DNA from: Oscillospiraceae bacterium
Lineage (GTDB): Bacteria; Bacillota; Clostridia; Oscillospirales; Oscillospiraceae
Length of the DNA: 47,491 nucleotides
Assembly: GCA_017416325.1 (NCBI GenBank)
Contig: JAFQCV010000004.1
Location: forward strand, 1-47,491
Direction of reading: 5' to 3'
Under the pieces are notes generated by a model. That model did not search any database. It was not told the DNA's origin and saw nothing but the letters and a program-made list of their open reading frames with translations. The translations under genes were made by a program, and so were the position numbers. Positions 6,368 through 20,949 of the stretch are shown piece after piece; the first letter of the stretch is position 1; each line of letters begins with the position of its first letter.

Positions 6368-6414
6368 AACTCAGATAATTACGAAGTATGGCTTATTTGA
6401 GAAAGGAGACCGTT

Positions 6415-7644
6415 ATGGCAATGCAGAAGGAAATGGGCAATATGCAGATTACCGCTTGTAAGCCCAATATTCGTGTTTCTATTTTGGACCGTCTTTCTTC
6501 CGTTGACCTTTGTGCTTTCAACTCCTCTGAATATACGATTCTTCCCGGCTTTTGTGATGTGCATGTGCATTTCAGAGAGCCGGGTTTTTCTTACAAAGAG
6601 ACGATCTTGACCGGATCTCTTGCTGCCGCCCGGGGTGGCTACACGGCGGTATGCACCATGCCGAATCTGAACCCGGTCCCGGACAGCAAGGCAAACCTGA
6701 AGCAGCAGCTGGATCTGATCCGGCAGGACGGCATGATCCACGTCTACCCCTACGGCTCGATCACTGTGGGGCAAAAGGGTCAGGATCTATCAGATATGAA
6801 GGGCATGGCTCCCAATGTGATCGCTTTTTCTGACGACGGCAAAGGCATCCAGACGGAAGCTATGATGCGAAGCGCCATGCTGAAAGCCAAATCCCTGAAC
6901 AAACTGATCGTTGCCCACTGTGAGGACGAATCTCTGCTCAACGGCGGCTATATTCACGACGGCGATTACGCCCGGGAAAACCACCACCGGGGCATCTGCT
7001 CGGAAAGTGAATGGGGGCAGATCGCCCGGGACTTAAAGCTGGTGAAGGAAACCGGCTGCGCCTATCACATCTGCCACATTTCCACTAAGGAAAGCGTAGA
7101 GCTGATCCGCCAGGCGAAAAAAGAGGGCCTGAATGTCACCTGCGAAACCGCCCCCCACTATCTGATCATGGACGACAGCTTCCTGCTGGAAGAAGGCCGC
7201 TTCAAGATGAATCCCCCTCTGCGGGGCGCGGAAGACAGACAGGCTTTGATTGAGGGTCTGATAGACGGCACCATTGATATGATCGCCACCGACCACGCCC
7301 CCCACTCCGAAGAAGAAAAGAGCAAAGGTCTGGACGGCAGCAGCTTCGGTATCGTTGGGCTGGAAACCGCGTTCCCCCTGCTGTATACCTACCTGGTCAA
7401 AGAGGGAATCATTACCATGGAGCGGCTGATGGAACTTCTGGTTACCAATCCCCGGAAGCGCTTTAATATTCAGCAAGGCTGTGACTTCTCCATCTGGGAT
7501 CTCCGGCAGAACTATATCATTGAACCGGAAGAATTCCAATCCATGGGCAAGTCCACCCCCTTCTCCGGCTGGCGGGTTTACGGTCGCTGTCTGGCAACGG
7601 TCTGCGACAGCAAGCTGGTATGGCTGGAAAAAGTGAGAAAATAA
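6415..7644 (+). CDS. pyrC: Dihydroorotase
   Basis: 409 residues. It catalyses reversible cyclisation of N-carbamoyl-aspartate to dihydroorotate, the third pyrimidine step. Metal-binding motif DVHVHFREPG lies near residue 47, further ligands in VAHCEDE and HICHIST, and the class signature ATDHAPHS near residue 292. The start at 6415 is chosen because AAAGGAG (6402-6408) precedes it by 6 nt; an upstream in-frame ATG at 6388 would include that site. It is the first gene of the pyr operon, an unusual position; in B. subtilis pyrB precedes pyrC. The next gene begins 30 bp later. Confidence 0.96.
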   Translation: MAMQKEMGNMQITACKPNIRVSILDRLSSVDLCAFNSSEYTILPGFCDVHVHFREPGFSYKETILTGSLAAARGGYTAVCTMPNLNPVPDSKANLKQQLDLIRQDGMIHVYPYGSITVGQKGQDLSDMKGMAPNVIAFSDDGKGIQTEAMMRSAMLKAKSLNKLIVAHCEDESLLNGGYIHDGDYARENHHRGICSESEWGQIARDLKLVKETGCAYHICHISTKESVELIRQAKKEGLNVTCETAPHYLIMDDSFLLEEGRFKMNPPLRGAEDRQALIEGLIDGTIDMIATDHAPHSEEEKSKGLDGSSFGIVGLETAFPLLYTYLVKEGIITMERLMELLVTNPRKRFNIQQGCDFSIWDLRQNYIIEPEEFQSMGKSTPFSGWRVYGRCLATVCDSKLVWLEKVRK

Positions 7645-7674
7645 TTTGTTTGATATAGATATGGAGGCATTTTT

Positions 7675-10600
7675 ATGGCAAAGCGTACAGATTTAAAGAA
7701 AATTATGATCATCGGCTCCGGCCCTATCGTGATCGGACAGGCCGCAGAGTTTGACTATGCCGGCACGCAGGCATGTCTGGCTCTGAAGGAGGAAGGCTAT
7801 GAAGTGGTTCTGGTCAACTCCAACCCCGCCACCATCATGACGGATACTACTATTGCCGACAAGGTCTACATGGAACCCTTGACACTGGAATATGTGGCAA
7901 AGATCATTCGTTACGAGCGTCCCGACGCCATCGTTCCCGGCATCGGCGGCCAGACCGGTCTGAACCTTGCCATGCAGCTGGAAAAGAAGGGCATCCTGAA
8001 GGAGTGCCGTGTGAAGCTGTTGGGTACTTCCAGCGCATCCATCGAGCGGGCGGAAGACCGGGAGCTGTTTAAGGAGCTTTGTGAGGAGATCGGCGAGCCG
8101 GTCATCCCCTCTGAGATCACCTATTCCATCGAAGAAGCCAAGGAAGCTGCCAAGCGCATCGGCTACCCCGTTGTTCTGCGCCCTGCCTTCACTCTGGGCG
8201 GCACCGGCGGCGGCTTCGCTTACAGCGAAGAAGAGCTGGTTGACATCGGCATCAACGCCTTTAACCTCTCCCCTGTTCATCAGGTTTTGATTGAAAAGTC
8301 TGTCAAGGGCTACAAGGAGATCGAATTCGAAGTCATGCGCGACGGCACCGACCATGCCATCACCATCTGCGGCATGGAAAACATCGACCCTGTGGGCGTT
8401 CACACCGGTGACTCTTTGGTTGTCGCTCCCATTATGACCCTCAGCCCCGAAGATCAGAAGATGCTCAACGACTCCGCCATCAAGATCATCCGCGCACTGA
8501 AGATCGAAGGTGGCTGCAACGTCCAGTTTGCTCTGGACCCCCACTCCTCTCAGTACTATCTCATTGAGGTCAACCCCCGGGTTTCCCGCTCCTCCGCCTT
8601 GGCCTCCAAGGCTTCCGGCTATCCCATCGCCCGGGTTACCGCCAAGATCGCTGTGGGTATGACGCTGGAAGAGATCAAGATCGCCAACACCAATGCCGCC
8701 TTTGAGCCGCAGCTGGACTATGTGATCGCCAAGCTGCCCCGGTTCCCCTTCGATAAGTTCACCTCCGCTTCCAACACCTTAGGCACTCAGATGAAGGCCA
8801 CCGGCGAGATCATGGGTATCGGCTCTACTCTGGAAGAGTGCCTGCTCAAGGGCATCCGTTCCTGCGAGATCGGCGCTAACCACATCTATCATCCCAAGTT
8901 TGATAATATGTCCAAGGAAGATCTGCTGGAGTATATCAGCGTCTTCCGGGATGACAATATCTATGCTATCGCTGAGCTGATCTACCACGGTGTCTCTGTA
9001 GAAAAGATCCATGAGATCACCCAGATCACCCCCTTCTTCCTGGAAGCCATTAAGCGGATCGTGGATATGGAAGAGACCTTAAAGGGCAATGTACGCGATT
9101 TGGACACACTGATCGCGGCAAAGAAAATGGGCTTCAGCGACAAGTATATCGCCCGCCTGTGGAAGTGCAGCGAACTGGATGTTTATCACTTCCGTAAGGA
9201 AAACAAGGTCTTCCCCGTATTTAAGATGGTGGATACCTGCCACACCGGTGCTTATATCCCCTATTTCTACTCCTCTTATACCGGCGAAAACGCATCCATC
9301 GTCACCGACAAAAAGAAAATCGTGGTTCTTGGTGCCGGCCCCATCCGTATCGGTCAGGGCGTGGAGTTTGACTATTCCACCGTCCACGCGGTCATGACCA
9401 TCAAGAACGCCGGTTATGAAGCCATCATCATCAACAACAACCCCGAAACCGTTTCTACCGACTACACTACCGCTGACAAGCTGTACTTTGAGCCTCTGAC
9501 TCCGGAAGATGTGATGAACATTATTGAGTTTGAAAAGCCCATTGGTGTCATCGCTTCTCTGGGTGGCCAGACGGCTATCAATCTGGCGCAGCCCTTGACA
9601 GATCGCGGTGTTAAGATCATCGGCACAGACTGCGCCGCTATCGACAAGGCAGAGGACCGGAACGCTTTTGAAAATCTGCTCAACGAGCTGAACATTCCCC
9701 GGGCTAAGGGACAGGCTGTCACCAAGATCGAAGACGGCATTGCCGCAGCGGCAGAGATCGGCTATCCTGTTCTGGTGCGTCCCAGCTTCGTTTTGGGCGG
9801 CCGCGCTATGCAGATCGTTGCCAACGAGGATCAGCTGCGCCATTATCTGAAGACCGCCGTTGAAATTGACGAGGACAAGCCCGTTCTGGTGGATAAGTAT
9901 ATCGAAGGCCGCGAAGTTGAGATCGACGCCATCTGCGACGGCCGGAATGTGTTCGTCCCCGGCATCATGGAGCTGGTAGAACGTACCGGCGTCCACTCCG
10001 GCGACTCCATTTCTGTCTATCCCTCCTTCTCCATCTCCAACAAGGTCAAGGGTATCATCCTGCAATACGCCAAGAAGCTGGGTCTGGGTATCGGCATTGT
10101 GGGTCTTTTCAACATCCAGTTCATCGTAGACAAGGATGACAATGTGTTTATCATCGAGGTCAACCCCCGTTCTTCCCGTACTGTCCCCTTCCTCTCCAAG
10201 GCTACCGGCTACTCCCTGGCGGACATTGCTACCGAGGTCATTCTTGGCAAGAGCTTGAAAGAGCTGGGTCTGTTTGACATCTATCCCGATGAAAAGTCCC
10301 GCTACTATGTCAAAGCTCCCGTATTCTCCTTCAACAAGATTCGCGGTCTGGATGCCTATCTGTCACCCGAAATGAAGTCTACCGGCGAAGCCATCGGCTA
10401 CGACAAGACACTGAATCGCGCTCTGTATAAGGCGCTGCAGGCCTCCGGTATGCATCTGCAGAACTACGGCACAATTCTGGCAACCATCGCCGACAAGGAT
10501 AAGGAGGAAGCTCTGGAGCTGATCCGCCGCTTCTACAACCTGGGCTTCAACATCGAAGCTACCGCCGGCACCGCCAAGTATCTGAAAGAACACGGGATCC

Positions 10601-10842
10601 GCACCCATATGCTCCGCAAGATCAGCGAGGGCAGCGAGGAAATCCCCAACGCCCTGCGGCAGGGACACATCGCCTATGTCATCAACACCCGGGATCCCGG
10701 CTCTGATCAGAACGACGGTATTCACATCCGTCAGCTGGCTACTGAGTACAATGTGACCATGTTCACCGCTCTGGATACTGTTAAAGTTTTGCTGGACGTT
10801 TTGGAAGAGACTACTCTGACCATTTCCACCATTGACGCTTAA
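7675..10842 (+). CDS. carB: Carbamoyl-phosphate synthase large subunit
   Basis: 1055 residues, normal length for CarB. Two homologous ATP-grasp halves are evident: the first begins IMIIGSGPIVIGQAAEFDY, the second (about residue 548) IVVLGAGPIRIGQGVEFDY; a C-terminal MGS-like allosteric domain follows from about residue 930. It makes carbamoyl phosphate from bicarbonate, ATP and ammonia, the ammonia normally channelled from glutamine by the small subunit CarA. No carA is present in this operon or window, so CarA must be encoded elsewhere or the enzyme uses free ammonia. It is preceded by a GGAGG site. Confidence 0.97.
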   Translation: MAKRTDLKKIMIIGSGPIVIGQAAEFDYAGTQACLALKEEGYEVVLVNSNPATIMTDTTIADKVYMEPLTLEYVAKIIRYERPDAIVPGIGGQTGLNLAMQLEKKGILKECRVKLLGTSSASIERAEDRELFKELCEEIGEPVIPSEITYSIEEAKEAAKRIGYPVVLRPAFTLGGTGGGFAYSEEELVDIGINAFNLSPVHQVLIEKSVKGYKEIEFEVMRDGTDHAITICGMENIDPVGVHTGDSLVVAPIMTLSPEDQKMLNDSAIKIIRALKIEGGCNVQFALDPHSSQYYLIEVNPRVSRSSALASKASGYPIARVTAKIAVGMTLEEIKIANTNAAFEPQLDYVIAKLPRFPFDKFTSASNTLGTQMKATGEIMGIGSTLEECLLKGIRSCEIGANHIYHPKFDNMSKEDLLEYISVFRDDNIYAIAELIYHGVSVEKIHEITQITPFFLEAIKRIVDMEETLKGNVRDLDTLIAAKKMGFSDKYIARLWKCSELDVYHFRKENKVFPVFKMVDTCHTGAYIPYFYSSYTGENASIVTDKKKIVVLGAGPIRIGQGVEFDYSTVHAVMTIKNAGYEAIIINNNPETVSTDYTTADKLYFEPLTPEDVMNIIEFEKPIGVIASLGGQTAINLAQPLTDRGVKIIGTDCAAIDKAEDRNAFENLLNELNIPRAKGQAVTKIEDGIAAAAEIGYPVLVRPSFVLGGRAMQIVANEDQLRHYLKTAVEIDEDKPVLVDKYIEGREVEIDAICDGRNVFVPGIMELVERTGVHSGDSISVYPSFSISNKVKGIILQYAKKLGLGIGIVGLFNIQFIVDKDDNVFIIEVNPRSSRTVPFLSKATGYSLADIATEVILGKSLKELGLFDIYPDEKSRYYVKAPVFSFNKIRGLDAYLSPEMKSTGEAIGYDKTLNRALYKALQASGMHLQNYGTILATIADKDKEEALELIRRFYNLGFNIEATAGTAKYLKEHGIRTHMLRKISEGSEEIPNALRQGHIAYVINTRDPGSDQNDGIHIRQLATEYNVTMFTALDTVKVLLDVLEETTLTISTIDA

Positions 10843-10851
10843 GGTACTAAG

Positions 10852-11589
10852 ATGAAACAAAGTATTTTTACCATTCATTCCAACGAAGCGCTGACTGACA
10901 GCGTTTATAAAATGGTGCTTGGCGGAGACACCTCCGCCATCACCGCCCCCGGTCAGTTTGTCAATATTTTGCTGGACGGACTGTACCTGCGCCGCCCCAT
11001 CTCTGTATGCGACTATGACGAAAGCACCCTCACCCTTGTCTACAAGGTGGTTGGCAAAGGCACAGAGCAAATGTCCCGGAAAGCTGCCGGAGAAAAGCTG
11101 GATATCCTTACCGGCCTCGGCAACGGTTACGATCTGACCCTTTCCGGCGACCGTCCGGTACTGCTGGGCGGCGGTGTTGGTGTGCCGCCTCTGTATAACC
11201 TTGCCAAAAAGCTCCTTGCTCAGGGCAAGAAGGTTTCTGTCATCCTGGGCTTTAATACCAAGTCCGAAATTTTCTACGAAGAAGAATTCAAGAAGCTGGG
11301 TTGCGATGTAACCGTCACCACAGTAGACGGAAGCTACGGCATCCAAGGTTTTGTCACCACCGCATTGGAAACAATGGACTATACTTACTTCTACACCTGC
11401 GGTCCTGAACCCATGCTGAAGGCCATCTACAAGGCATCCAACACCTCCGGTCAAATGAGCTTTGAGGAGCGGATGGGTTGCGGTTTCGGTGCCTGCATGG
11501 GATGCTCCTGCAAGACCCTCACCGGCAACAAGCGGATCTGCAAAGAAGGTCCTGTTATGAAGAAGGAGGAGATCTTATGGGAAAGCTGA
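10852..11589 (+). CDS. pyrK: Dihydroorotate dehydrogenase B, electron-transfer subunit
   Basis: 245 residues. An FAD-binding region (RRPISVCDYDE), an NAD-binding motif GGGVGVPPLYNLAKKL, and a C-terminal 2Fe-2S site with cysteines in CGFGACMGCSCKT and RICKEGP. PyrK passes electrons from dihydroorotate oxidation in PyrD to NAD+, so this operon encodes the NAD-linked class 1B enzyme typical of Gram-positive bacteria. Its end overlaps the start of pyrD by 13 bp in another frame, implying coupled translation. Confidence 0.95.
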   Translation: MKQSIFTIHSNEALTDSVYKMVLGGDTSAITAPGQFVNILLDGLYLRRPISVCDYDESTLTLVYKVVGKGTEQMSRKAAGEKLDILTGLGNGYDLTLSGDRPVLLGGGVGVPPLYNLAKKLLAQGKKVSVILGFNTKSEIFYEEEFKKLGCDVTVTTVDGSYGIQGFVTTALETMDYTYFYTCGPEPMLKAIYKASNTSGQMSFEERMGCGFGACMGCSCKTLTGNKRICKEGPVMKKEEILWES

Positions 11590-12488
11590 ATGTGAATCTT
11601 TGCGGTATTGAACTTTCTAACCCTATCATCCCTGCTTCCGGCACCTTCGGCTACGGCTATGAGTTTGCAGAACTCTATGACATTAATGAGCTTGGCACCT
11701 TCTCTTTTAAAGGCACTACAAAAGATCCCCGGTTTGGCAACCCCACACCCCGGATCGCGGAATGTACCGCCGGCATGATCAACGCTGTTGGCCTGCAGAA
11801 TCCCGGTGTTGAAAAAGTCATCACAGAAGAATTACCCAAGCTGAAAGCGTGCTTTCATAAGCCTGTTATGGCAAATGTCAGCGGTTTCTCTGTTGAGGAC
11901 TATGCTTACACTTGCGCAAAACTGGACAAGGAAGAACAGGTAGGTTGGCTGGAGGTCAATGTGTCCTGCCCCAATGTGCACGGCGGCGGCATGAGCTTCG
12001 GCACGCAGCCGGAAGCCGCTGCGGAAGTCACCCGCGCTGTAAAAGCAGTCACAACCAAACCGGTCATTATCAAGCTTTCCCCCAATGTCACCGACATTGT
12101 ATCCATCGCAAAAGCCTGCGAGGATGCCGGTGCAGACGGCATCAGCCTGATCAATACATTATTGGGCATGCGCATCAACCTGCGGACAAGAAAGCCTGTC
12201 ATTGCCAACAAAATGGGCGGTTTTTCCGGCAGCGCTATCTTCCCGGTTGCCGTGCGAATGGTCTACCAGGTAGCCAACGCCGTGAAGATCCCAGTGGTGG
12301 GCATGGGCGGTGTTTCCAGTGCCGAAGACGTCATTGAGATGATGCTCGCCGGCGCTACTGCTGTAGAAGTGGGTGCAGCAAACCTTGTTAACCCGTATAT
12401 CTGCCGTGATATCGTCCGGGATTTGCCGGAAGTCATGGCTAAGTACCGTATCAACAGCTTAGAAGAGATTATAGGAGGCGCGAAATAA
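11577..12488 (+). CDS. pyrD: Dihydroorotate dehydrogenase B, catalytic subunit
   Basis: 303 residues from ATG 11577 (MGKLNVNLCGIELSNPI), chosen because AAGGAGG precedes it at normal spacing. FMN-binding TIM barrel; NVSCPNVHGGG carries the catalytic cysteine characteristic of class 1 DHODs (Cys rather than the Ser of class 2), and GMGGVSSAEDV the phosphate-binding loop. It oxidises dihydroorotate to orotate with PyrK. Its stop shares one base with the pyrF start (TAATG). Confidence 0.95.
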   Translation: MGKLNVNLCGIELSNPIIPASGTFGYGYEFAELYDINELGTFSFKGTTKDPRFGNPTPRIAECTAGMINAVGLQNPGVEKVITEELPKLKACFHKPVMANVSGFSVEDYAYTCAKLDKEEQVGWLEVNVSCPNVHGGGMSFGTQPEAAAEVTRAVKAVTTKPVIIKLSPNVTDIVSIAKACEDAGADGISLINTLLGMRINLRTRKPVIANKMGGFSGSAIFPVAVRMVYQVANAVKIPVVGMGGVSSAEDVIEMMLAGATAVEVGAANLVNPYICRDIVRDLPEVMAKYRINSLEEIIGGAK

Positions 12489-13186
12489 TGGGTAAAGACG
12501 TAATTGTAGCATGTGACTTCTCCTCCGCCGAGGCAACCTTTGCTTTTCTGGACAAGTTCACCGGCCGGAAGCCCTTTGTCAAGATCGGCATGGAGCTGTA
12601 CTACGCGGAAGGCCCCAGCATTGTCCGGGAAATCAAGGCCCGTGGTCACAAGATCTTTTTGGACCTGAAGCTCCATGACATTCCCAACACTGTTAAAAAG
12701 GCAATGGCCGTTCTGCGGAATCTGGATGTGGATATCACCAACCTCCATGCCGCCGGCGCGACTGCTATGATGCAAGGCGCTCTGGAAGGGCTGACCCGGG
12801 AGGACGGCACCCGTCCCCTGTTGATCGCCGTGACCCAGCTGACCTCCACCGACCAGGAGACTTTGGAGCGGGATCTGATGATCCATGCCCCCATTGACGA
12901 AGTGGTGATGCACTACGCGGAAACCGCCAAAAATGCCGGTCTGGACGGCATCGTCTGCTCCCCTCTGGAAGCCGGCAAGGTGCATGACAAGTGCGGCAAG
13001 AACTTCCTGACCGTGACCCCCGGTGTCCGCTTCGCTGATGGCGATGTGGGTGACCAGAAGCGTGTCATGACCCCCGCCGCTGCCAAGCAGATCGGTTCTG
13101 ACTACATCGTGGTTGGCCGCCCCATTACCGCTGCTGCTGACCCCGTGGCTGCATACGAGCGCTGCGTCGCTGAATTTTGTGACTAA
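12488..13186 (+). CDS. pyrF: Orotidine 5'-phosphate decarboxylase
   Basis: 232 residues. N-terminal VACDFSS and the catalytic D-x-K-x2-D array in DLKLHD (Asp59, Lys61, Asp64) identify OMP decarboxylase, which makes UMP; the phosphate-binding end reads DYIVVGRPI. GGAGG lies 9 nt before the ATG inside the pyrD 3' end. The arrangement with pyrD (1-bp overlap) and pyrE (11-bp gap) indicates a single transcript. Confidence 0.96.
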   Translation: MGKDVIVACDFSSAEATFAFLDKFTGRKPFVKIGMELYYAEGPSIVREIKARGHKIFLDLKLHDIPNTVKKAMAVLRNLDVDITNLHAAGATAMMQGALEGLTREDGTRPLLIAVTQLTSTDQETLERDLMIHAPIDEVVMHYAETAKNAGLDGIVCSPLEAGKVHDKCGKNFLTVTPGVRFADGDVGDQKRVMTPAAAKQIGSDYIVVGRPITAAADPVAAYERCVAEFCD

Positions 13187-13197
13187 GGAGATAGAAA

Positions 13198-13851
13198 ATG
13201 GAAGCCTACAAAAGAGAATTTATTGAATTTCTGCAGGATGCCGGTGTTCTGAAGTTTGGCGATTTCACCGCCAAGTCCGGCCGCAAGATTCCTTACTTTG
13301 TCAACGCCGGCATGATCAAAACCGGCGACCAGATCACCAAGATGGGCGAATTCTATGCCAAGGCTTACTTTGATAAGTTGGGCAAAAAGGAAGCTGTTCT
13401 CTACGGCCCTGCTTACAAGGGTATTTCCCTGTCCATCTCCGCTGCCGTTGCCCTGTCCAAGAACGGACTGAATGTTCCTTTCTTCTTTAACCGCAAGGAA
13501 GTAAAGGATCATGGCGAAGGCGGCACATTTGTGGGCTACGTTCCCCAGTCCGGTGAAGAGATCGTCATCATTGAGGATGTCATCACTGCCGGCACGGCCA
13601 TTCGTGAGAGCATGGAGATATTAAAGCATCTGGACGGCACCAAGGTCATCGCTACTTTCATCATGGTGGACCGGAAGGAAAAGGGTCAGACAGACAAGGG
13701 CGCAATGCAGGAGATCGAAGAACAGTTCGGTTTCCCTGTATACTCTGTCGTGGATGTCTATGACATTATCGAATATCTGGAGGAAGACCCTGCCAACAAA
13801 GAAAATGTCACCAGAATCAAAAACTATCTGGCTGTAAACGGAGCGAAATAA
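13198..13851 (+). CDS. pyrE: Orotate phosphoribosyltransferase
   Basis: 217 residues. The PRPP-binding motif [13 protein letters not shown] is at residues 122-134, and the orotate/PRPP loop [15 protein letters not shown] near residue 96. It joins orotate to PRPP to give OMP, the substrate of the preceding gene product. AAGGAG lies at normal distance before the ATG. The pyrB start follows after a single base. Confidence 0.96.
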
Positions 13852-13852
13852 T

Positions 13853-14932
13853 ATGAGAAGTCTGATCAGTATTCTGGAACTGAGTGTGGAAGAGCTGGAT
13901 CAGCTCATTGCCACCGCTAAGGATATCATTGCTCACCCTGATAAATATTGGGACAGCTGTAAGCATAAGAAGCTGGCTACCCTGTTCTTTGAACCCTCTA
14001 CCCGGACTCGCCTGAGCTTTGAAGCAGCTATGCTGGAGCTGGGCGGTACTGTTCTGGGTTTCAGTGAAGCCTCTTCTTCCTCCGCATCCAAGGGCGAGAG
14101 TGTGGCAGATACCGCAAAGATCGTATCCTGCTACGCGGACATCATCGCTATGCGACATCCCCGGGAAGGCGCGCCTTTTGTGGCATCCCAGGCAGCCTCC
14201 ATTCCGGTCATCAACGCCGGTGATGGCGGTCACAACCACCCAACCCAAACCTTGGCGGATTTGCTGACCATCTCCCGGGAACTGGGCCGCCTGGACGGGT
14301 TGACCATTGGTTTGTGCGGCGATTTGAAATACGGACGGACAGTCCACTCTCTCATTGAAGCTATGAGCCGCTACACCGGTGTCAAATTCGTCCTTATCTC
14401 TCCGAAGGAACTGAAGGTTCCCGGCTTTATCCGCTATAATGTTCTGGAGAAGCACCAGATCCCCTACACCGAAACCACCTCTTTGGAAGAAGCTATGCCT
14501 CAGCTGGATGTTCTGTATATGACCAGAATCCAGCGGGAGCGTTTTGAAGATCCCCAGGAGTATGAGCGCCTGAAGGACAGCTATATCCTTGACACCCAGA
14601 AGATGCAGCTGGCCAAAGAGAAAATGTGCGTCATGCATCCCCTGCCCCGTGTCAATGAGATCAGTGTCAAGGTGGATGAAGATCCCAGAGCCGCCTATTT
14701 CCGCCAGGCACTCAACGGCAAGTATATGCGCATGGCTCTGATTTTGAAGCTTCTGGAGGAAGCCAAGGACCCCACAAAGGCTGCCTTTGATACCTCCGGT
14801 CTGGTTTCTGACAAAATCTGCAGCAACCCCAAATGCATTTCCGCTGTGGAGCAGGAGCTGCCACAGCTTTCCCGGCTCACAGATGCCGAAGAGAATATTC
14901 ACCGCTGCATTTACTGCGAACAACGTGTATAA
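13853..14932 (+). CDS. pyrB: Aspartate carbamoyltransferase with fused PyrI-like zinc domain
   Basis: 359 residues, about 50 longer than a plain catalytic chain. The catalytic part has [12 protein letters not shown] (carbamoyl-phosphate loop, Ser49-Thr52), [10 protein letters not shown] and [10 protein letters not shown]. After the catalytic fold the tail has Cys323, Cys328, Cys352 and Cys355 in CSNPKCIS...CIYCEQ. Cysteine spacing (x4, x23, x2) is identical to the zinc domain of E. coli PyrI (CPNSNCIS...CKYCEK). The N-terminal nucleotide-binding domain of PyrI is absent. In E. coli that zinc domain contacts the catalytic chain, so here it may stabilise the oligomer. Last gene of the operon, ending just before the terminator. 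Confidence 0.95.
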
Positions 14933-14937
14933 CGAAA

Positions 14938-14969
14938 ACGATCGGCTGTGCTACCGCACAGCCGATCGT
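14938..14969. terminator. Bidirectional terminator between pyrB and the GIY-YIG gene
   Basis: A 13-bp perfect stem, ACGATCGGCTGTG (14938-14950) with CACAGCCGATCGT (14957-14969), loop CTACCG. It starts 5 bp after the pyrB stop. The stop codon of the convergent GIY-YIG gene (14951-14953) lies in the loop. The minus-strand exit has TTTT; the plus-strand exit is less T-rich. Confidence 0.85.
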
Positions 14970-15211
14970 GTTATAAGTTTCATTTTTTCTTCTCGCGGCA
15001 GCGCCTTAATAGACAACTCCCGTTTTAAAGCAATCGATTTGCTTTCACAGACTTCTGTATAGACTAGTACCAACGGACCTCTGCCGCGGGTATACTTTGC
15101 GCCCTTTCCTCTGCGGTGCATCTCCAGCCTTGCCGGCACATCCTTAGCAATTCCGGTGTAGAGACTTCCATCACAACACCGCAGGATATAAACTGACCAT
15201 TTTTCGTCCAC
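14951..15211 (-). CDS. GIY-YIG domain protein (YhbQ/YazA-like)
   Basis: 86 residues, consisting of one GIY-YIG nuclease domain: WSVYILRCCDGSLYTGI contains the VYI...YTG core, followed by RLEMHRRGKGAKYTRGR and an ELSIKAL stretch. This matches the small UPF0213/YhbQ/YazA family, usually considered DNA-repair-associated. Its last codons and stop sit inside the pyrB terminator hairpin. Three bp separate it from the upstream membrane protein gene, so it likely belongs to the pncB transcript. Confidence 0.9.
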   Translation of the reverse strand: MDEKWSVYILRCCDGSLYTGIAKDVPARLEMHRRGKGAKYTRGRGPLVLVYTEVCESKSIALKRELSIKALPREEKMKLITRSAVR

Positions 15212-15214
15212 AAG

Positions 15215-15715
15215 CTACCTCCTGAACCGGAAGCGCTTATTCAGCACTCGGTCCATAAGAAAGAAGCATACATTACCGAGAACCAGTGTAAACAGGGTCA
15301 TCACCGTGCCCATCTGGGCAAACTCCTGAAGAAGCTGCGCCATACCAAATGGATGCGTTAACAGCCAATACAGCGAAAGGATCACGGCATTGAACAGAAG
15401 TCCCTTCCAAAGCCAACTAAGAGGTAACCGCTCCAGCTTTGGCTTTATCACGGGATAATATCCAAGGGCGGTGAAAACCGCGGCTGCCTCCCTATCCGGC
15501 GCCAACAGCAAACTGAGTAAACAGACAACGCCGTACCAAGCCAGAGCAATCTTACCGCCACACTGTCCTAAAACGACCTTTGCCAGCAAAATACAAAGCA
15601 TCGGACATACAAACGTTGCCACGGGGATCAAAGTCCCCAGGCACATAATGACCACCGCTAACGCTGCCAGGATGCCGCCAAAGGCAACCGGGAAAGAGGA
15701 ATTATCCCTTTGCAT
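15215..15715 (-). CDS. Multi-helix membrane protein, unknown, coupled to pncB
   Basis: 166 residues with five or so hydrophobic segments, starting FPVAFGGILAALAVVIMCLG and including TFVCPMLCILLAKVVLG and a YYPVIKP loop. The start, ATG 15715, lies inside the pncB 3' end (14-bp overlap), so the two are translationally coupled. Size and N-terminal pattern are reminiscent of small integral S-component-like proteins, but no known signature is present. The tight link to nicotinate phosphoribosyltransferase suggests, as inference only, a role with nicotinate or another NAD precursor. Confidence 0.7.
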   Translation of the reverse strand: MQRDNSSFPVAFGGILAALAVVIMCLGTLIPVATFVCPMLCILLAKVVLGQCGGKIALAWYGVVCLLSLLLAPDREAAAVFTALGYYPVIKPKLERLPLSWLWKGLLFNAVILSLYWLLTHPFGMAQLLQEFAQMGTVMTLFTLVLGNVCFFLMDRVLNKRFRFRR

Positions 15716-20678: not shown

Positions 20679-20949
20679 AGATCGCACACCCACATTTGAA
20701 CCTGCTGAATACCCGGAACCGGTGCAGCCAGCTCAGGAACGGCAACCCCACGGCACACGAGAAGATCCGCTTAATGCTGCTTGGTTCCCCACCTGACATG
20801 GTTCACGGGATCTCGTTGCGTAAGACCGGTCCTTCAACACCGCTTACACCGACCAGACGGCACTCAGACAAGCCCGGGTGTAGGAATTCACCCCTGCTAT
20901 AGCGGATTGCAGGTACAGGGCACCGCTATCTCCCCGACTAGTGCGACCT
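20679..20949 (-). ncRNA. ffs: Signal recognition particle RNA, large bacterial type
   Basis: The minus strand contains the conserved SRP54-binding hairpin (GAACCATGTCAGGTGGGGAA, then CCAAGCAGCATTAAG, near 20771-20806) and the Gram-positive Alu-domain stretch (TACCTGCAATCCGCTATAGC, then AGGGGTGAATTCC). The predicted ends pair: AGGTCGCAC at the 5' side (about 20941-20949) with GTGCGATCT at the 3' side (20679-20687). About 270 nt matches the large-type SRP RNA. Position directly upstream of dnaX is the usual Firmicutes location. Exact ends, promoter and terminator are not resolved; a CCTTGTT...AACAAGG inverted repeat lies just upstream of the 5' end. Confidence 0.93.

Follow-up and report, generated by a model that had tools for sequence, protein, structure and literature searches.

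Clostridial aspartate carbamoyltransferases that keep only the zinc domain of the PyrI regulatory chain

A pyrimidine gene cluster ending in a fused pyrB

The window, by which we mean the whole 47,491-nucleotide stretch of DNA that was analyzed, carries a cluster of pyrimidine biosynthesis genes in the order pyrC, carB, pyrK, pyrD, pyrF, pyrE and pyrB-Zn. The last gene of the cluster is an open frame from ATG to TAA, in which the catalytic chain of aspartate carbamoyltransferase (ATCase) runs on into a cysteine-bearing tail. The genes of the cluster and the parts of the pyrB-Zn product are as follows:

6388..7644 (+): pyrC, dihydroorotase, first gene of the cluster (Pfam DHOase/Amidohydro_1)
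7675..10842 (+): carB, carbamoyl-phosphate synthase large chain (Pfam)
10852..11589 (+): pyrK, dihydroorotate dehydrogenase electron-transfer subunit (Pfam DHODB_Fe-S_bind)
11577..12488 (+): pyrD, dihydroorotate dehydrogenase (Pfam DHO_dh); the start is an internal ATG, picked by eye, of a frame listed at 11478, and the Pfam scan covered 11568-12485
12488..13186 (+): pyrF, OMP decarboxylase (Pfam OMPdecase)
13198..13851 (+): pyrE, orotate phosphoribosyltransferase (position and Pfam Pribosyltran match)
13853..14932 (+): pyrB-Zn, ATCase catalytic chain with fused PyrI-type zinc domain, 359 aa
13856..14275 (+): carbamoyl-phosphate-binding domain, residues 2-141 (Pfam OTCace_N, 159.3 bits)
14294..14746 (+): aspartate-binding domain, residues 148-298 (Pfam OTCace, 110.2 bits)
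14756..14818 (+): variable linker between catalytic fold and zinc domain, residues 302-322 (linker dN and length distribution)
14819..14926 (+): PyrI-type zinc domain, residues 323-358, with Cys323, Cys328, Cys352 and Cys355 (Pfam PyrI_C; PDB profile search)

carB directly follows pyrC, and no carA lies between them (7644-7675). Convergent with pyrB-Zn, a small GIY-YIG domain protein (PF01541) is encoded at 14951-15211 (-), and beyond it lies a 166-aa ORF (15215-15715, -) that had no Pfam match at E 0.001. The sole Rfam match in the window is a bacterial large SRP RNA at 20682-20946 (-; RF01854, 203 bits). For PyrR, nothing in the window genome scored above the cut-off; there were three weak phosphoribosyltransferase matches, one of them at the position of pyrE.

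The window protein scored 345.4 bits against the NCBIfam ATCase equivalog TIGR00670, above its cut-off of 236.95. At the nine residues that we take to form the catalytic site (E. coli numbers S52, R54, T55, K84, R105, H134, R167, R229 and Q231) the window is identical, and all nine are 100% conserved in the 93 long-loop and 23 short-loop fused proteins compared below. The catalytic chain is accordingly annotated as a complete PyrB, with an active site that appears intact.

The original prediction had placed four cysteines beyond the catalytic fold but within the PyrB frame, spaced as in E. coli PyrI, and both parts of this claim were borne out. The frame is open and the tail reads C-x4-C-x23-C-x2-C, while E. 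coli K-12 PyrI (NC_000913) has the same spacing (C109, C114, C138, C141) with matching local motifs (CPNSNCIS and CKYCEK). The Pfam model PyrI_C (PF02748) matched residues 323-358 with 28.7 bits (curated cut-off 23.4; E 1.2e-6), and an alignment of 46 fused proteins shows no substitution at any of the four cysteines. Used singly, the 37-residue tail of the window had no PDB match at E 1. A profile of 17 fused tails, into which no PyrI was included, returned 17 PDB hits at E 10, and the best 10 of these were ATCase chains of regulatory-chain length (8 named regulatory chain), led by 2yww_A (E 6.5e-5) and 1pg5_B (E 5.8e-4) with the other eight at about 0.03. The PyrI_C match, the Cys4 invariance and the profile matches rule out chance cysteines. 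At the level of sequence the tail is the zinc domain of PyrI, whose invariant Cys4 site points to bound zinc and makes the product a putative zinc-binding protein.

The N-terminal nucleotide-binding domain of PyrI (PF01948) had no match in the window protein in the Pfam search. Two whole-chain PyrI models scored below their cut-offs and aligned to the zinc part only (NF002063, 32.1 versus 171; TIGR00240, 13.4 versus 148.55), and the NCBIfam model for PyrB/PyrI fusions, NF009916, reached 117.2 bits versus a cut-off of 800 and covered only the catalytic part, residues 2-300. In the window genome (2.02 Mb, 90 contigs, 86% complete) the window ORF is the single PyrI_C match. The search for a separate pyrI that had been proposed with the original prediction found no PF01948 match in this genome, and a separate pyrI was rejected as a candidate. 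At this completeness, the view that the structural half of PyrI is retained and the nucleotide half absent has held.

Distribution and origins of the zinc-only form

A survey of PyrB proteins with this tail, likewise proposed at the outset, covered 295 genomes sampled evenly across the window's order. PyrI_C was matched in 205 of them and PF01948 in 113, all inside the 205, which leaves 92 genomes with PyrI_C alone versus 113 with both domains. All 36 of the PyrI_C-only genomes that were read, the window included, carry in-frame zinc-only fusions. Neither domain was matched in 90 of the 295; a search of 80 of these with the window protein as query turned up a PyrB at E <=1e-30 in 49. Among PyrB loci from genomes with no PyrI_C match at E 0.001, a Cys4 tail was present in 31 of the 31 read (the 30 best plus L127), and these tails are best read as diverged zinc tails below the Pfam threshold. 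Six of the remaining 18 PyrBs are divergent, at 34-37% identity to the query. If the 56 unread genomes of the 92 are also zinc-only, the form occurs in at least 92 + 31 = 123 of 295 genomes versus 113 with both domains, which would make it about as common in the order as the classical pair of PyrB and PyrI. A series of bare or Cys-less tails was sought and none was seen among the 30 best PyrB loci lacking a PyrI_C match, nor in 190 chosen loci.

In these 190 loci, whose fused or adjacent status was placed by a BLAST-based scan, 112 carry a zinc-only fusion (the loci were hand-chosen, and the count is not a frequency), which rules out a unique oddity or an assembly error. A contig scan of 80 loci, which score highest against the full query and give no frequency either, found the tail in the PyrB frame in 46, an intact pyrB followed by a separate full pyrI in 33, and a broken pyrB in one. 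In this last locus (L061:4554-5528) pyrB is in two pieces, with a stop or frameshift near residue 195, and an intact pyrI lies downstream; it is a sequencing error or a pseudogene. Long PyrI frames in G126, G187, G111 and G081 (497, 387, 247 and 231 aa) were considered as fusions and set aside, since by eye they look like out-of-frame read-in upstream of pyrI. Both arrangements occur within the window's own genus, where G268 (99% complete) is fused and G111 has a full pyrI.

Sampling across the phylum (n=299) gave 29 genomes with PyrI_C and 28 with PF01948, the window genome alone being PyrI_C-only, which hinted at confinement of the zinc-only form to the window's order. This was overturned by the class sample (n=196), where PyrI_C was matched in 75 genomes, PF01948 in 66 and PyrI_C only in nine. 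Four of the nine are fusions in other families (G606, G664, G685 and G751), three belong to the window's order (G000, G023 and G031), one has a free-standing zinc domain (G724), and one is G619, where the PyrI_C match falls in a 56-aa frame (G619:C9:1229-1348) with no pyrB in the 1700-base piece that was read (L197).

The free-standing form in G724 consists of pyrB followed by a 67-residue ORF that has a PyrI-like start and then jumps to the zinc domain. In the family of G724 (f182), 177 of 194 genomes match this peptide, and zinc-only frames of 64-77 residues occur in at least six (G724, G783, G821, G784, G822 and G872). These six belong to four genera, two of which have two members each, and an assembly error is unlikely because two species of one genus share the short form. 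The first ATG of the mini-PyrI overlaps the pyrB stop or lies at most roughly 12 bases away. The stretches read around the mini-PyrI ORFs contain no PyrI N-domain, and genome-wide absence of PF01948 was established for G724. The same family also contains a zinc-only PyrB fusion of its own:

L196:2586-2789: mini-PyrI directly after pyrB
L226:2073-2267: mini-PyrI directly after pyrB (stop-to-stop frame)
L227:1933-2166: mini-PyrI directly after pyrB (stop-to-stop frame)
L228:1923-2126: mini-PyrI directly after pyrB (stop-to-stop frame)
L229:2049-2252: mini-PyrI directly after pyrB (stop-to-stop frame)
L230:2134-2334: mini-PyrI directly after pyrB (stop-to-stop frame)
L231:1271-2413: zinc-only PyrB fusion of f182 (G794), 380-residue frame

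When four fused tails, the six free-standing ORFs and E. coli PyrI were aligned, the four cysteines, N111, E119 and Y140 were invariant, in the order C, N111, C, E119, C, Y140, C.

The number of origins was approached with a 116-row tree of the catalytic part, from which same-label rows more than 90% identical and rows shorter than 285 residues had been dropped (8 of L002-L081 entered). This tree implies six changes between fused and separate states, of which its starred branches force three, and a single change was found in 0% of 200 bootstrap trees, in a bootstrap that had not settled. The window falls in a starred set of 24 rows, 23 fused and one separate. An AU test of a single fused clade gave p 0.054 with the long row L150 excluded; this row, a zinc-fused PyrB of G287, has a very long branch (1.66) and an odd amino-acid make-up. 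A quick tree without the 240s-loop and 165 columns gave 11 changes, two of them forced by starred branches, which would be expected if those columns converge, or could come from weaker resolution. In a 35-row PyrB tree (7 zinc-only proteins of f182, the window and 27 with full PyrI, outgroups included) there were six changes, four of them forced by starred branches. Several independent losses of the nucleotide domain are the likely history, and the AU p of 0.054 falls short of firmly rejecting one origin in the order.

Conservation of the reported docking residues and divergence of the 240s loop

Four segments of the catalytic chain bear on the question of how the zinc domain sits in the assembly:

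14165..14167 (+): Glu105 codon, equivalent to E. coli cGlu109, the reported partner of rAsn111
14219..14239 (+): 130s segment, G123-H129, equivalent to E. coli 128-134, the reported contact region of cSer131/cAsn132
14330..14332 (+): Tyr160 codon, equivalent to E. coli Tyr165
14528..14578 (+): 240s-loop segment, residues 226-242, which differs from the VQ.ERFFNE usual in PyrI-bearing relatives

Selection on the tail was gauged from pairwise dN. Six close relatives (15 pairs) gave a zinc-domain dN of 0.03-0.14, a catalytic dN of 0.04-0.11 and a linker dN of 0.27-0.52, while the six pairs that include the window gave 0.20-0.25, 0.07-0.10 and 0.58-1.03, respectively. The linker dN exceeded both the zinc and the catalytic dN in all 21 pairs of these seven close sequences. 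By this measure the zinc domain is under constraint in the group, with the window copy having drifted more.

Which residues are kept was read from a zinc-domain alignment of 117 fused proteins (94 long-loop, 23 short-loop) and 87 adjacently encoded PyrI proteins. In every group the equivalents of the four cysteines and of E119 are fully conserved, and that of N111 reaches 97-100%; within the fused groups, I115 is kept in 87-96%, S/T116 in 88-96%, E/D142 in 96-100% and Y140 in 83-87%, the last being otherwise aromatic among the letters displayed. The equivalents of rAsn113 and rLys143 are lost in the fused proteins, and position 113 is Arg in the 87 adjacent PyrI proteins also. On the catalytic side, the Glu109 equivalent is present in all 86 PyrI-bearing proteins and all 23 short-loop fusions, and in 88% of the 93 long-loop ones. 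The 130s segment is kept except at residue 128, with Gly126 and His127 of the window replacing E. coli Ser131 and Asn132, and D, G, G and H at E. coli 129-132 are conserved at 96-100% across groups. In E. coli, rAsn111 bonds cGlu109 and the Asn111-to-Ala mutant has neither homotropic nor heterotropic effects (PMC6056424, in excerpt), cSer131 and cAsn132 contact rGlu142 and rLys143, and mutants of rAsn111, rAsn113, rGlu142 and rLys143 lose feedback or have a destabilized T state (PMC6981877, in excerpt). Residues of the reported catalytic-regulatory contact are mostly retained. The RHP.EG motif, which holds Glu109, is missing in all six of the divergent order PyrBs, and the Glu is kept by most fused proteins.

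Other parts of the zinc domain are relaxed. Phe, Leu and Tyr at window positions 340, 342 and 350 are fixed in the 87 adjacent PyrI proteins and occur in 81, 24 and 41% of the long-loop fused proteins, respectively; in the short-loop group they fall outside the two commonest letters, with 342 and 350 mostly gaps, and the window tail itself lacks the Phe at 340. The Val/Ile pair before the first cysteine is likewise relaxed in fused proteins. The stretch between the second and third cysteines is 23 residues long in 82 of the 87 adjacent PyrI proteins and 16-18 in 23 of the 117 fused proteins, and linker lengths range from 17 to 41 residues. The relaxed residues would be those that faced the lost nucleotide domain.

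The 240s loop together with Lys164/Tyr165 presumably forms the trimer-trimer contact of ATCase. Columns of the catalytic chain were compared between 86 PyrI-bearing relatives, 93 long-loop and 23 short-loop fused proteins, after L061 and L130 (short or broken PyrB) had been dropped. Among 144 PyrB columns conserved in the 86 PyrI-bearing proteins, the consensus was altered at six in the 47 fused proteins of the window group (E. coli 165, 230, an insert before 236, 236, 237 and 239). All six lie within the 230-245 loop or at 165, a region of 16 of the 144 columns (hypergeometric P 7e-7, an optimistic value, as the region was named after a first look and the columns share ancestry); on starred branches there are only three independent pairs, with which a sign test cannot reach 0.05. 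The same six columns are altered across all 93 long-loop fused proteins, and in the 23 short-loop proteins 18 columns are altered, seven in this region (P 8e-4) and 11 elsewhere. As a control, far and near PyrI-bearing proteins were compared, and none of the top 20 of 182 columns fell in the region. Phe at 165 is present in every one of the 86 PyrI-bearing proteins, in 15 of the 93 long-loop ones and in none of the 23 short-loop ones; for Phe at window position 232 the counts are 83 of 86, 2 of 93 and 0 of 23. Lys164 (89%) and Tyr240 (100%) persist in long-loop fused proteins, and Glu239 is mostly kept; the importance of Lys164-Glu239 is noted in the excerpted text of PMC6056424.

In the second family, f182, ERFFN is present in all 23 PyrBs with a full PyrI (L202 and L232-L253) versus none of the seven zinc-only proteins (Fisher 4.9e-7, a value that ignores ancestry), and TRIQ in four of the seven zinc-only proteins versus none of the 23. 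Two of the seven keep the loop Phe (FFSE). Position 165 is non-Phe in two of the seven, both of one genus, and in one of 22-23 proteins with full PyrI. The 240s-loop change is repeated in this second family, and the change at 165 mostly is not. Inside the window's fused clade, the sole PyrB with a separate full pyrI (L081:4980-6325) has a loop (RIQRERFTNQEEY) that resembles those of the fused proteins, and its PyrI is diverged, which may mark a transitional or a regained state.

A proposed zinc-clipped trimer and its place among ATCases

The window enzyme is probably a zinc-clipped catalytic trimer without nucleotide control, in which PyrI has been reduced to a zinc domain fused to the PyrB C-terminus. 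The zinc domain would dock on the catalytic chain of its own trimer at the classical c1:r1 site, via the variable linker, and would there buttress the 130s loop beside the active site, stabilizing or tuning the trimer. Nucleotide-binding domains dimerize PyrI; their loss, together with release of the 240s-loop contact, would have done away with the dodecamer. In the absence of PyrI dimers as links between trimers, the fused chains would form a single trimer, with neither CTP/ATP control nor a T/R quaternary switch, and control of flux would have to lie elsewhere. The parts of this proposal differ in strength: loss of nucleotide sensing is nearly certain, docking of the zinc domain on the catalytic chain is highly likely and the trimeric state likely, while the exact kinetic effect proposed for the zinc domain is an even call. 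Between trimer and dodecamer, these data indirectly favor the trimer, and a non-allosteric one is what the loss of PF01948 and the divergence of the 240s loop would together imply. The free ATC trimer is non-cooperative (PMC9687781, in excerpt), in line with the proposed mechanism.

The best surviving alternative, though an unlikely one, is a hexamer in which swapping of the zinc domain between two trimers keeps them joined, with no nucleotide domains involved, and part of the cooperativity is retained. Linkers of 17-41 residues could reach a neighboring trimer, and Lys164 and Tyr240 are kept in the long-loop proteins at the percentages given above. Residue 165 is moreover unchanged in five of the seven zinc-only proteins of f182, and because the 165 change did not repeat there, the trimer reading is slightly weaker and the hexamer slightly stronger. 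Against it, what diverged in the order, and again in f182, is the very loop that we take to join trimers, and in six genomes the zinc domain is untethered and could not bridge by a tether. A zinc- or redox-sensing switch on pyrimidine flux, built on the Cys4 site, is improbable. The four cysteines are invariant in the 46 fused proteins and the hosts are probably anaerobes, but the same cysteines are 100% conserved in the 87 adjacent PyrI proteins, and in ordinary PyrI they are structural; several other kept residues belong to the reported docking contact, for which a pure sensor would have no use, and no positive support for a redox switch was found. Just as improbable is that the tail binds another protein for channeling, such as the cluster's dihydroorotase or carbamoyl-phosphate synthase. 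The clustering of pyrC, carB, pyrK, pyrD, pyrF, pyrE and pyrB-Zn would suit this idea, but the conservation of the tail coincides with the PyrI residues that dock on PyrB.

That the tail is a functionless, decaying remnant of PyrI is very improbable. In 23 of 117 fused proteins the second and third cysteines are separated by 16-18 residues instead of 23, and the window tail evolves faster than those of its relatives, both of which could be read as decay. Against this, the short-loop group keeps the equivalents of the four cysteines, N111 and E119 without exception, a Cys-less tail occurs in none of the 190 hand-chosen loci, and zinc-domain dN resembles catalytic-domain dN among close relatives. 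A complete pyrI elsewhere in the organism that serves the window PyrB has a negligible chance, given that the genome, although only 86% complete, has no PF01948 match and that 92 of 295 order genomes share this lack, among them G268 of the same genus at 99% completeness.

Compared with E. coli PyrBI, a c6r6 dodecamer, the zinc-clipped trimer proposed here shares the catalytic chain family, the cysteine spacing, the equivalents of N111, E119, Y140 and E142 and the catalytic Glu109; it differs in that the nucleotide-binding domain is missing and the zinc domain is covalently attached, and in its 240s loop and at 165 it has diverged from those relatives of the order that bear PyrI. In 1991, Markby, Zhou and Schachman reportedly prepared a complex in which a 70-residue PyrI zinc peptide is bound to the catalytic trimer of the E. 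coli enzyme. A catalytic trimer with a zinc domain and no nucleotide domain is also what is predicted for the window, and the free-standing frames of f182 (64-77 aa) are about as long as that peptide; unlike the laboratory complex, the window-type form is natural and heritable, and in the window's order it is covalently fused. By this analogy, the window enzyme may be the natural counterpart of the laboratory trimer-zinc peptide complex, and the mini-PyrI genes of f182 that of the zinc peptide itself.

The complete PyrB-PyrI fusion of Thermotoga maritima (Chen et al. 1998, titled as a fused allosteric enzyme; via an excerpt of PMC4581275) likewise joins PyrB and PyrI sequence in one polypeptide, whereas the window fuses the zinc domain only and scores far below the NF009916 cut-off. 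The Bacillus subtilis-type ATCase, described in the same excerpt as a trimer without regulatory chains, shares with the window the unregulated trimer predicted here, to which the window adds a zinc domain. The six divergent order PyrBs are assumed to be of the Bacillus subtilis type; they lack the RHP.EG motif in which fused proteins mostly keep the Glu. Three bacterial ATCase forms are distinguished in the excerpted text of PMC4581275: with dihydroorotase, with PyrI (separate or fused), and as a bare trimer. Among the matches listed from open-licence literature, none dealt, by title or abstract opening, with a PyrB that has the zinc domain only or with a PyrI zinc domain standing alone. The claim that a zinc-only fusion would be a distinct arrangement stands insofar as it fits none of the three reviewed forms, but it is not a rarity, being about as common in the order as PyrB with PyrI. 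A catalytic chain with only the zinc half would be a fourth form of bacterial ATCase.

ATCase is the standard teaching case of allostery. Many gut Clostridia, the source of the window among them, make an ATCase whose PyrI has shrunk to the zinc domain, in most cases as a fusion, and this distribution suggests that the large, feedback-controlled complex has repeatedly given way to a simpler, zinc-clipped one. With about equal weight for and against, this may be a recurrent route in Clostridia, by fusion or by a mini-PyrI, each time turning the dodecamer into a zinc-clipped trimer and releasing the constraint on the 240s loop; the zinc domain would then be a partner of the catalytic subunit, possibly older than the nucleotide half. 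These genomes offer natural pairs of enzymes, some of them from a single genus, that would allow the role of an isolated zinc domain to be tested, and such pairs could show which residues serve the dodecamer only and how pyrimidine flux is controlled without ATCase feedback.
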